DNA of 64,000 bases from Nitrososphaerales archaeon. GTDB lineage: Archaea; Thermoproteota; Nitrososphaeria; Nitrososphaerales; CADDZS01. Made by a program: the position numbers and the translations under genes. The stretch covers positions 92,042 through 156,041 of the forward strand of contig JASHNZ010000019.1 in NCBI GenBank assembly GCA_030041355.1. Reading direction: 5' to 3'. The notes beneath the pieces are model-generated. The model saw only the letters and a program-made list of their open reading frames with translations, was not told the origin of the DNA and ran no database searches. Shown here piece by piece: positions 56,123 through 63,351 of this stretch (position 1 is its first letter; each line of letters begins with the position of its first letter).

Positions 56123-58168
56123 TTAACCATTTTGCTTTTCAGAAACAATCTTGTAAGCGCCGGAAGGGAGTACGCGGATAATATCATCAATTGCAATCTT
56201 CTTTCCAAGCTCCTTAAGCAGTGTTTGCTCTCCTTGAATTTTTGAGACGAGCAATTGCTTAATCCGTCGTGCAATAAGCGTACCTCTCTCTCTGCCCGGG
56301 GCTAGTTTTACTCTAGAAACGCAATATTTCGAAAGCGCTTTTTCAGGACCACAGACTACGATGACAGAGGATGACTTAGGTTCGAGCTCATTTTCGCCTT
56401 CTCGGGGAAGGGTTTCAGAACTCATCAGACCGACGGACAACTCTAATCGCACGTGTTTCACAAAATTCTTCTTTCCTTCGATGAAGAAAGAGCCTCTTGG
56501 AAGATATTCCCCAGAAGGCGCGCTTTTCTTTATCTGATTCGGCTCGACCCAGTAGGCATCGGCAGAACCCAACTCGTCCTTCCAAGCCCTGCTGAAACCG
56601 ACAGTCGCCTGAGCCAGTTCCTGTTCTATTTCCTGGTCCATGCGAAGACCACTGTTGTCCTTTCCGTCTCTCAACACAAAAAAAGGAGAGCCATGCAAAT
56701 CCGCATGAAAAACGAGGGAATTAGGATCGGTGTATTTGTTGATTATCACACTGTTCGAAGTGCTATCACGGCCGCCAATTGCAAGTCTCATGTCAGATGT
56801 AAGAAACCATCGATAACGTTCGAACCACTGCTTAGCTCTTCTCTCAACGGATACACGTTTTGTTGCCCGCTCCTCAGAAGTTTTTGATTGCTCTAAGAGA
56901 TCATCTTTTCTCCTGACAAGCTCCTTGCGAATTTCTGTTATGTTGTGATTAATTTGTTCGAGGCTCTTTGCCTCGTCAAATAACCTTGAGGCGAGAGCTC
57001 GCGAGGTTGCAAAAGATTTGAGAAACGCTCTAGGCTCTTTTACGAACCTCAATTCGTGCGATGAGATCTGATCCCTTTGGAGAAGTTTCATACTTTCTAA
57101 TCTATCTGCGATCTCGCCGATAAACTCTGAGTCGCTGCCCATGAGCTGCGCCCCTATTCTTCTCAATTCTTTTGCGGTTGTATCGTTTTTCTCAAGCAAC
57201 AGATCTTGTTTCTGGATGGCTGAATTTAGCTCTTCAGCTTTGGATCGAATCTCTTCGGACGCCTTTGTTCTTTTTTCGAGCAAGAACGCTTGTGACTGAG
57301 CTTCATCGAGAGCCTCATCAAAAGATTGGAATTCTAGAATTGTTGCACGTTGCTTTTGCTCGAGAGCCTTCCAAGTGTTGGGAACAATCGGGCACACGTC
57401 CACTTCAGATTCAATATTTTCCTCGCTCGGGATCAAGAAGTATCCTTTTTTGCTACTCTCAATTTCAGTCGCCAATGCGTTTGATGTATCTGCGAGTTTA
57501 GCAATATCCTCGGGACTCAATTCCACAATAGGCAAGTCGGGATCGATGGCCAAACGTTGGAAGATTTCTTCAACAAATTTTCTCGATGTGCCAACTGCAC
57601 GTCCGAACCAGCGGATTGCACTCATCTTGCTTGATTTTGTATCGGATCTCGCGTTTGCTAATTGAGAAGAAAGATATGCCGCGCTCACTCCTTCCAGGTT
57701 CTTGCCGCGAGAAGGGGGCAGAATGTACTTTTCACCGGCAACGAGAGAGCGGTGCCTGAATCGCTGCGGATTTCGGACATCCAAAATTCTTTCTTCTTGA
57801 TCTACGAGCACAATGTTTCCTCCGCCAAAAAATTCTGCATGAAGTTTCCTTTTTTCTCCGGAGCGAGATTGAAGCACAAGTGTAGCTATTCGCTCGCTAC
57901 CCTCTTGCTCCACAGTGACGAGCTTGCTCCTCTCAACAAATTCCCTAATCCCTGCGACAAACGAGTCGGCTTGCTCAAGAGAAAGATTCTTCTTAGTCAA
58001 CCAAGTTGCAAAAGACGAGACAGCAATCAGTCTTTCTTCGTTTGTCTCGTGACGCAGCCTTAACAGAATTCCCTCCTCGATCGAATAAACAGAGCTCACA
58101 GAGTAGCCTTCGATGGAGTTTGCAATTCTCTTGCACAACAATCTGATCTCGGAAGCAGAGATTTCCAT
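56123..58168 (-). CDS. rqcH: RqcH/NEMF, ribosome quality control protein
   Basis: NFACT-family protein of 681 residues from ATG 58168. It recognises stalled large subunits carrying peptidyl-tRNA and, in several lineages, directs C-terminal tailing. Visible are the NFACT-N domain (EISASEIRLLCKRIANSIEG, ILDVRNPQRFRHRSLVAGEK and YILPPSRGKNLEGVS), a central coiled coil (about 300-430), and the NFACT-R part WFERYRWFLTSDMRLAIGGR then FHADLHGSPFFVLRDGKD. GTG 58180 is an alternative start. No peptidyl-tRNA hydrolase or L31e gene is nearby. Confidence 0.93.
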   Translation of the reverse strand: MEISASEIRLLCKRIANSIEGYSVSSVYSIEEGILLRLRHETNEERLIAVSSFATWLTKKNLSLEQADSFVAGIREFVERSKLVTVEQEGSERIATLVLQSRSGEKRKLHAEFFGGGNIVLVDQEERILDVRNPQRFRHRSLVAGEKYILPPSRGKNLEGVSAAYLSSQLANARSDTKSSKMSAIRWFGRAVGTSRKFVEEIFQRLAIDPDLPIVELSPEDIAKLADTSNALATEIESSKKGYFLIPSEENIESEVDVCPIVPNTWKALEQKQRATILEFQSFDEALDEAQSQAFLLEKRTKASEEIRSKAEELNSAIQKQDLLLEKNDTTAKELRRIGAQLMGSDSEFIGEIADRLESMKLLQRDQISSHELRFVKEPRAFLKSFATSRALASRLFDEAKSLEQINHNITEIRKELVRRKDDLLEQSKTSEERATKRVSVERRAKQWFERYRWFLTSDMRLAIGGRDSTSNSVIINKYTDPNSLVFHADLHGSPFFVLRDGKDNSGLRMDQEIEQELAQATVGFSRAWKDELGSADAYWVEPNQIKKSAPSGEYLPRGSFFIEGKKNFVKHVRLELSVGLMSSETLPREGENELEPKSSSVIVVCGPEKALSKYCVSRVKLAPGRERGTLIARRIKQLLVSKIQGEQTLLKELGKKIAIDDIIRVLPSGAYKIVSEKQNG

Positions 58169-58317
58169 CTGATTTTTCACATCGCAGGAATTTTGTTTTG
58201 CAGTTTCACTGCCACCGAAACCCTAAAAAGATGTCGTGAGAAAAACATGAAGAAATAGAGCAATCCGTTTTTCTTTTTTCATGTTGTAGCTGGTAGGGCA
58301 GAGTTAGACCTAAAATC

Positions 58318-58737
58318 ATGAGTTCGAGTCCGAAGGGCGGAGGAGGTCCGAAACGTGGAGGAACAAGTACTCCGCCCAATCCTGAGCCGCCCGTAGACCG
58401 CGCTTTTCTTCGTCATCAACTCCAGATTCTGGCTTGGGTTCGTGTGGGACTCGGAGCTTTCTCAGGATTCTTGGCGGGATTCTTACCTTTTGGTAATCCC
58501 GGGCAGCCTCCATTCAGCGCCAATTCCTATGCTGATATTTATTTCGCAGTTTTCATCTACATTGGATCGTATTATCTCGCAAAATATGGTCTTCGAATTC
58601 GAATGCCCTACAAGGACAGAAACAAGCTGATCACTCAGGGAATAGGGGGGTTTATCATGATATTTCTGTTCGTTTGGATACTTTACAGCACTTTCTGTTT
58701 CAGCGTCGGCGGAAGTTGTCCTCATTTCAGCCTTTAA
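58318..58737 (+). CDS. EMC6-like small membrane protein
   Basis: A 139-residue protein with a proline-rich N-terminus (about 1-25) and three membrane spans. The pattern VRVGLGAFSGFLAGFLPFG, then FAVFIYIGSYYLAKYGL, then LITQGIGGFIMIFLFVWILY closely follows the eukaryotic EMC6 layout (SALSG..AG.LGL, a second span, a basic/charged loop, then TGGLIGG...VLFWTFLY). EMC6 is a core subunit of the ER membrane protein complex and has archaeal relatives. An insertase-related role is inferred. It converges on the RadA paralogue with a four-base overlap. Confidence 0.6.
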   Translation: MSSSPKGGGGPKRGGTSTPPNPEPPVDRAFLRHQLQILAWVRVGLGAFSGFLAGFLPFGNPGQPPFSANSYADIYFAVFIYIGSYYLAKYGLRIRMPYKDRNKLITQGIGGFIMIFLFVWILYSTFCFSVGGSCPHFSL

Positions 58738-59498
58738 GGGACAATGCCCATTGTTTCAATATTGAAATTTGTACTGGCATTTCGCACAAAGGGCTGAACG
58801 ATCTTTGCTTCCCTTAACCGATCTCGCTTTGAGAAAGATAGCCTGAAGAGTGCGAATTCGGAAATAATTTCACCCATCGTCTCAACTTCTGTTTGATCTA
58901 TTTTCTGATCTCTCTCTGACAATCTAGATCTTACAGAATTCGTGAGAAGTACGGCCATATTCCTTGACAGGGCAATGTATGCTAACTTTCGGACATAGGT
59001 GGCGAGATGGTAGTATCGCGAGACAAATACCTCTTCTTGTCCATCAGCGTCGGCTGGATATTCAACCGCAAAGTTAGCAGTAATATCGTCAACAATCAGC
59101 AGCTTGCACTGAGTAAACATGTCTGAGTTGAGAATGAGCTCGTTTATTTCTCGTTGTTCAGTCACACTTCTGACATAGACGGAAGTGATCCGATCAAGGA
59201 TTTCACCTGCGCTTGATAGTTGTCTAGCTTCAGCCATTTCTGCGATTCGTTCTGGACGAAAGGATCCTGCGCAATCTACAAAAACTACTCGCGGCTTTCT
59301 ACTCTGAGATTCTTTGAGCGAACAATACAGAGCATTTTGGAAAGCAAATTGCGTCTTGCCTGTTGCAGCTGCCCCATAGAGGTCCGTTATGGCGCAGGTT
59401 GCAAGTCCACCTCCGAGAAGCGAATTGAAGGAGCTGGATCCGGTGTCGAGCTTCTCGGCTTTCCTAATCCCTAGGTCGACCCTGTCCGATCTCAACAT
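58734..59498 (-). CDS. RadA paralogue (RadB/RadC-like RecA ATPase)
   Basis: A 254-residue single RecA domain with no N-terminal helix-hairpin-helix. Walker A is LYGAAATGKTQFAFQNALY and Walker B CKLLIVDDITANFAVEYP. The equivalent of RadA's IDTENTFRPERI is here VDCAGSFRPERIAEMAEAR; the residue that carries the catalytic glutamate in RadA is Ala. Archaeal RadA paralogues help load or regulate RadA rather than exchange strands. The C-terminus keeps a DNA-contact-like region. Start ATG 59498. Confidence 0.8.
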   Translation of the reverse strand: MLRSDRVDLGIRKAEKLDTGSSSFNSLLGGGLATCAITDLYGAAATGKTQFAFQNALYCSLKESQSRKPRVVFVDCAGSFRPERIAEMAEARQLSSAGEILDRITSVYVRSVTEQREINELILNSDMFTQCKLLIVDDITANFAVEYPADADGQEEVFVSRYYHLATYVRKLAYIALSRNMAVLLTNSVRSRLSERDQKIDQTEVETMGEIISEFALFRLSFSKRDRLREAKIVQPFVRNASTNFNIETMGIVP

Positions 59499-59631
59499 TT
59501 CAAATTCCTTCTACTACAATTATTCTCAAAGGAACAACTCTGTCCATTTGTTTGATTGAAAATGCTTTGCGTCAGAAGACAACATAAAATGCTTAAAGAC
59601 CTTCACGGAGATTTCGATTTTAAAGCTACGA

Positions 59632-59780
59632 GGGCCAGTAGCGCAGACCTGTTTGACTTTTCATCGTGATGGTGAAGGCAGAGCGTAGCATGGACAGCGC
59701 GGCAGAACGAGCGTGTGCCGAGCCTCCTAAGCCTGAGCTGTGATAGCTGTAGGTCCTGGGTTCAAATCCCAGCTGGCCCG
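59632..59780 (+). tRNA. tRNA-Arg(CCT) with three introns
   Basis: Acceptor strands GGGCCAG (59632-59638) and CTGGCCC (59773-59779) pair perfectly; the T arm CTGGG-TTCAAAT-CCCAG is at 59756-59772. The D stem GCGC/GCGC closes only when about 41 bases (near 59651-59691) are removed from the D loop. The anticodon stem CAGGC/GCCTG appears only if about 16 bases (59706-59721) are removed inside the 5' strand, and the variable loop AGGTC needs removal of about 15 bases (59736-59750). The loop CTCCTAA gives anticodon CCT. Mature length is about 77 bases. Exact junctions depend on bulge-helix-bulge folding; the small introns are the least certain part. Confidence 0.8.
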
Positions 59781-63173: not shown

Positions 63174-63351
63174 GCGAGGGTCGCAGAGCCTGGTCAATTG
63201 CGCGGGTCAAACCTGCTTTGGTTTGGCGCGAAACTTAAGATCGCTGATTATGCTCTAACGCAGAAAGGCTATAGAGAACGATTCAGGCAATAATGGGTGA
63301 TAGGGTATCCCGTCCCTTAGGGGTTCGTGGGTTCAAATCCCACCCCTCGCA
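63174..63351 (+). tRNA. tRNA-Leu(TAA) with two introns
   Basis: Acceptor GCGAGGG (63174-63180) pairs with CCCTCGC (63344-63350), and the T arm GTGGG-TTCAAAT-CCCAC is at 63327-63343. The class II variable arm CCC-TTAG-GGG is at 63314-63323. The D arm is GCA/TGC. The anticodon stem CGGGA/TCCCG only forms after removing about 26 bases (63207-63232) from its 5' strand and about 67 bases (63243-63309) from its 3' strand. The loop is CTTAAGA, anticodon TAA. Mature length is about 85 bases, correct for leucine tRNA. Confidence 0.88.

Follow-up and report, generated by a model that had tools for sequence, protein, structure and literature searches.

Introduction

In archaeal bulge-helix-bulge (BHB) introns of the kind treated here, base pairs form between the 3' part of the intron and the preceding exon, and a bulge is left at each cut. 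Published archaeal tRNA introns are 11–129 nt long with medians mostly between 12 and 25 nt, and positions 30/31 and 45/46 are listed among the insertion points (PMC4090602). The maximum stated for one archaeal tRNA gene is three introns (PMC4033280; PMC8450103; PMC4390854). Among the Thermoproteales, the tRNA-Pro(UGG) gene of Pyrobaculum islandicum contains introns at 25/26, at 56/57 and at the canonical site (PMC4090602), and tRNA-Glu(UUC) of P. calidifontis is also encoded by a multi-intron gene (PMC4390854). tRNAs with multiple introns were likewise described for Candidatus Caldiarchaeum subterraneum (PMC3293823), and the tRNAscan-SE 2.0 catalogue comprises 107 non-canonical tRNA introns of Thaumarchaeota (PMC8450103).

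Here we analyze a tRNA-Arg(CCT) gene of an uncultured Nitrososphaerales archaeon, located on a stretch of 64,000 nucleotides that is called the window throughout. Like the multi-intron tRNAs of the Thermoproteales, this gene appears to combine one canonical with two non-canonical BHB introns, in a lineage with the two-subunit type of splicing endonuclease. It differs from them in the tRNA concerned, in the positions of the non-canonical introns (15/16 and 30/31) and in the host order, and its relatives reach four introns. With Candidatus C. subterraneum, where introns are found at 37/38 and in the D, V and T arms, the window case shares the kind of insertion sites, whereas the three multi-intron tRNAs named for that organism do not include tRNA-Arg(CCT). 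The Thaumarchaeota of the tRNAscan-SE 2.0 catalogue share the phylum-level group with the window gene, and up to three introns per gene are stated there. The three-intron arrangement is known though uncommon, and the window gene adds a Nitrososphaerales tRNA-Arg(CCT) to it. A first interpretation of the locus from its letters (the sequence-only reading) was fair in calling a three-intron tRNA rare. Its remark that the introns are close to the smallest known is misleading in view of the published range, within which the lengths of 42, 17 and 15 nt are ordinary.

Results and Discussion

Identification of the tRNA-Arg(CCT) Gene and Its Orthologues

The gene occupies positions 59632–59780 of the window on the plus strand. 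In a local Rfam scan the tRNA model RF00005 matched exactly this segment end to end with 36.5 bits (gathering score 29; E-value 4.8e-6 for 601 bases searched). This full-length match and the occurrence of orthologues in related organisms show that the gene is not a chance match, and the anticodon CCT identifies it as tRNA-Arg(CCT). Identity, anticodon and ends thus agree with the sequence-only reading. ARAGORN missed the gene in the window even when introns of up to 3000 nt were allowed, and an Rfam scan run over the entire window at the gathering threshold did not find it at 59632–59780 either. In its own genome the gene is the single match to the tRNA-Arg(CCT) pattern described below; the draft assembly is about 88% complete, so that a second copy is conceivable.

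The gene recurs in members of the same genus and in other families of the order. When 400 genomes of this order were screened with a tRNA-Arg(CCT) pattern, 64 gave a match. The pattern needs exact exon words, so that an unmatched genome is no proof of absence; this also applies to families f8 and f9, for which no sampled genome gave a match. Complete intronless orthologues are present in six genomes (L030 in G040, L033 in G021, L044 in G022, and L096 in G009, which recurs unchanged in G025 and G044). In these genes the segment GCGCG-GCAGC-CTCCTAA-GCTGT-AG is unbroken. Consequently, the mature anticodon stem is GCAGC/GCUGU within the arm G-GCAGC-CUCCUAA-GCUGU-AG, and this stem places the introns of the window gene at 15/16, 30/31 and 37/38. 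Other orthologues hold just some of the introns, which indicates that each site is occupied independently. The acceptor and T stems show compensating changes between orthologues.

Exons, Introns and Spliced Product

The window gene consists of four exons and three introns. Exon 1 (59632–59646, plus strand, as are all following segments of the gene) comprises the acceptor 5' strand GGGCCAG, TA at positions 8–9, the D-stem 5' strand GCGC, A14 and G15, as parsed by comparison with the orthologues. Next comes intron 1 (59647–59688), which splits the D loop at 15/16 and measures 42 nt; about 41 bases had been proposed for it. Exon 2 (59689–59705) reads CATGGACA GCGC G GCAG and contributes the remaining D loop, the D-stem 3' strand, position 26 and positions 27–30. 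The 17 nt of intron 2, AACGAGCGTGTGCCGAG, interrupt the 5' strand of the anticodon stem at 30/31 (59706–59722). Its borders also follow from the orthologue comparison; the earlier proposal of about 16 bases had placed an intron in the correct strand with other borders. Exon 3 (59723–59729) is formed by C31 and CTCCTA (32–37) with the anticodon CCT at 34–36. Intron 3, AGCCTGAGCTGTGAT, comprises 15 nt at the canonical site 37/38 (59730–59744) according to the orthologues, and a cut at 38/39 would give the identical product. Exon 4 (59745–59780) contains A38, GCTGT (39–43), the variable loop AGGTC, the T arm, the acceptor 3' strand CTGGCCC and the discriminator G.

Removal of these 42, 17 and 15 nt, together 74 nt, leaves a tRNA of 75 nt which begins with GGGCCAGUAGCGCAGCAUGGACAGCGCGGCAGCCUCCUAAGCUGUAGG. 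Its acceptor stem GGGCCAG/CTGGCCC is perfect, its anticodon loop is CTCCTAA, its variable loop is AGGTC (loops and acceptor stem as had been read before) and its T arm is CTGGG-TTCAAAT-CCCAG. The minimum free energy structure of this product is the cloverleaf with −33.0 kcal/mol, as expected of a tRNA-Arg(CCT). Compared with intronless orthologues of the same length the product shows 5–11 mismatches in 75 positions; removal of the introns therefore restores a tRNA that matches its uninterrupted relatives.

About 34–50 nt upstream of the gene lies the A+T-rich segment acataaaatgcttaaag (59582–59598, plus strand), the probable promoter region. By eye, a similar segment precedes two orthologues from the same genus. 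Of the neighbouring genes, both on the minus strand, the one at 58734–59498 encodes a RadA/RecA-family protein that fell short of the RadA cut-off; the product of the other (56123–58180) scored above the cut-off for RqcH, an archaeal protein of ribosome rescue.

Pairing of the Introns with the Exons

The central helix of the BHB motif was tested on 56 distinct orthologous genes in a register of 4 bp and compared with 2000 shuffles, which overstate the count of independent observations because the orthologues share kinship. The mean number of pairs out of four was 2.97 for the 29 introns at 15/16 (best shuffle 1.90), 3.97 for the 32 introns at 30/31 (best shuffle 2.00) and 3.28 for the 36 introns at 37/38 (best shuffle 2.06). 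At all three sites the adjacent registers scored below the predicted one. At least three of the four pairs were formed by 27 of 29 introns at 15/16 and by all 32 at 30/31. The intron sequence at 30/31 varies (GCCG, GTCG, GCTG) yet stays complementary to the exon. The exon side is nearly invariant, and the signal is therefore kept complementarity and not two-sided covariation. The inner helix also exceeded the shuffles at 15/16 and 30/31, with pairs that differ between genes, for example CTC/GAG, ACA/TGT and CCA/TGG.

In the window gene the 3' end of intron 1, GCGU-AG, pairs with exon positions 10–13 (GCGC), and GCCG-AG of intron 2 pairs with positions 25–28 (CGGC). Both central helices are complete with four of four pairs. 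The central helix of intron 3 is weak, with two of four pairs at 37/38 and three of four at 38/39; the four-bp helix of BHB introns was scored as present for the gene as a whole, and the thin helix of intron 3 is the weakest point of the BHB case. Fewer than three central pairs were found in just 2 of the 36 introns at 37/38, those of the window gene and of G003. An unconstrained fold of the whole precursor was uninformative and gave no cloverleaf with three BHBs. Taken together, we regard it as almost certain that this tRNA-Arg(CCT) gene is functional and that its transcript is interrupted by three introns of the archaeal BHB type, at 15/16, 30/31 and 37/38. Sequence comparison backs the gene, its borders and the pairing; cutting, ligation and their order are inferred.

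Alternative Interpretations

The count of three introns proposed before was confirmed by the orthologue parse, their arrangement was not. According to the sequence-only reading, the D-loop intron is accompanied by a 16-nt intron within the 5' anticodon strand and by one of 15 nt at 43/44, so that the anticodon stem becomes CAGGC/GCCTG. This stem is a perfect one of 5 bp, the resulting cloverleaf is slightly more stable (−34.5 against −33.0 kcal/mol for the corrected product), and some relatives do have a variable-loop intron, at 43/44 or 45/46. Yet the proposed removal of 41, 16 and 15 nt yields a product of 77 nt, or 76 nt with the 42-nt D-loop intron, with a surplus G beside position 26. The stem draws on intron bases: AGCCTG, the 5' end of the 37/38 intron, is read as its 3' strand and the true strand GCTGT as intron. 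GCCTG is missing in the same-genus orthologue L020, and the intronless orthologues show GCAGC/GCTGT. In the window gene GCTGT-AGGTC is contiguous, so there is no variable-loop intron at 43/44, and the 15 bases placed there are the canonical intron at 37/38. Folding energy was rejected as an arbiter of the exon borders, because its gap of 1.5 kcal/mol favours the version that the orthologues contradict. We consider that arrangement practically untenable. A single intron with equally good pairing had been named as the outcome that would overturn the reading; three introns remain, in a different arrangement with better comparative support.

That insertions broke the gene and that it is no longer used is very improbable, despite the failure of ARAGORN to find anything and the weak central helix at 37/38. 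A degenerate gene is at odds with exon bases and stems that are all intact and change in a compensating manner between species, with intron sites common to species whose introns differ strongly in sequence and length, and with intron bases that are constrained exactly at the BHB pairing positions. The gene is also the sole pattern match in its own genome, as far as the draft of about 88% completeness extends. The position of the third cut is less sharply defined. A cut at 38/39 leads to the same mature product and raises the central pairs from two to three of four, both in the window gene and in G003. Where the helices of relatives are clear, they agree with 37/38, and in some genes, e.g., those of G005 and G007, the cut cannot be moved. 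Thus, 38/39 is a possible but rather unlikely position.

Splicing Endonuclease and Proposed Order of Splicing

The genome contains two genes of the tRNA-intron endonuclease (EndA) family. The first protein (181 aa) carries YERGP, DHAPYLV and RK as in crenarchaeal catalytic subunits and resembles the crenarchaeal PDB entries 2cv8 (E-value 2e-39), 3p1z, 3ajv and 2zyz. The second shows the same family likeness with VYDRGDFGAKAAKYIV at the position of the catalytic His, which is absent. By these motifs the two genes are predicted to encode one catalytic and one structural subunit, the composition of the enzyme that accepts non-canonical sites. Catalytic and structural subunits form the alpha2beta2 type; a review attributes this type to the Thaumarchaeota and connects it with non-canonical introns (PMC4090602).

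The gene would be transcribed from the upstream promoter into one precursor. The heteromeric endonuclease, with one catalytic and one structural subunit, would then cut in the bulges that flank the short intron-exon helices, and the exon ends would subsequently be ligated. The usual archaeal route for this ligation is that of RtcB. Intron 1 would tie up exon bases 10–13 and intron 2 exon bases 25–28, which the mature tRNA uses for its D stem and for the upper end of its anticodon stem, respectively. Intron 3 is predicted to require the finished anticodon stem as outer helix. Since introns 1 and 2 occupy bases of later stems and intron 3 needs the anticodon stem, introns 1 and 2 are likely removed first and intron 3 last. 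A similar dependence has been described for closely spaced introns (tRNAscan-SE 2.0, PMC8450103).

Other Interrupted tRNA Genes of the Genome

A second interrupted tRNA gene of the window is tRNA-Leu(TAA) at 63174–63351 on the plus strand. It contains introns of 26 nt at 30/31 (63207–63232) and 67 nt at 37/38 (63240–63306), both with four of four central pairs. This gene was missed by ARAGORN and by the Rfam gathering scan, and its orthologues from the same genus look similarly interrupted. In the whole genome (G000) most of the 17 matches to the Rfam tRNA model (L001–L017) span 92–130 nt compared with about 73 nt. The tRNA set thus looks intron-rich, and many tRNAs were probably missed.

Orthologues with up to Four Introns

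The distinct tRNA-Arg(CCT) orthologues form a series with no intron (4 sequences), one (6), two (19), three (15) and four introns (12). Apart from the three sites of the window gene, orthologues use another site in the D loop, near 20/21, and one in the variable loop. The 12 distinct four-intron sequences (L037, L041, L057, L058, L060, L063, L083, L084, L085, L094, L105 and L106) were found in 14 genomes of three families, namely f4 (G011, G037), f10 (G031, G048, G099, G114, G120, G141, G150, G153, G174) and f14 (G043, G050, G069). Their introns are located at 15/16, 30/31 and 37/38 and at either 43/44 or 45/46; those of L037 measure 42, 23, 18 and 30 nt. The corresponding records are titled Thaumarchaeota or Nitrososphaerales and include JACPRH010000024.1 (L041), JACZWF010000017.1 (L083), VBPQ01000040.1 (L057), VBPK01000001.1 and JACWAI010000057.1.

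The variable-loop introns fall into two groups. Those of L037, L041, L078, L079, L082–L085, L088 and L089 fit 43/44 with a central helix to AGCU at 38–41, and those of L056–L058, L060, L061, L063, L093–L095, L105 and L106 fit 45/46 with a central helix to CUGU at 40–43. In different families, both thus yield products of one kind, which suggests separate origins. Two further observations were made in this set. In G153 as in G174 there are two tRNA-Arg(CCT) genes, of which one contains four introns and the other the 37/38 intron alone. The 30/31 intron of L021 (G004), AAATTGCTGAT, comprises 11 nt, which matches the lower limit published for archaeal tRNA introns.

A prior report of four introns in one archaeal tRNA was not found in the open-access literature, and one may exist elsewhere. 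We are fairly confident that four introns interrupt tRNA-Arg(CCT) in 14 or more genomes from three other families of the order. This would be the largest intron number reported for an archaeal tRNA gene, with exons between introns as short as 7 nt and with a series from none to four introns at a few fixed sites in one order.

The window gene is an example of a multi-intron tRNA gene that is overlooked by common annotation tools. Its four-intron orthologues exceed the stated maximum of three and are the part of most specialist interest. With independent presence and absence and divergent intron sequences, the series from zero to four introns makes gain, loss and splicing order testable by comparison.
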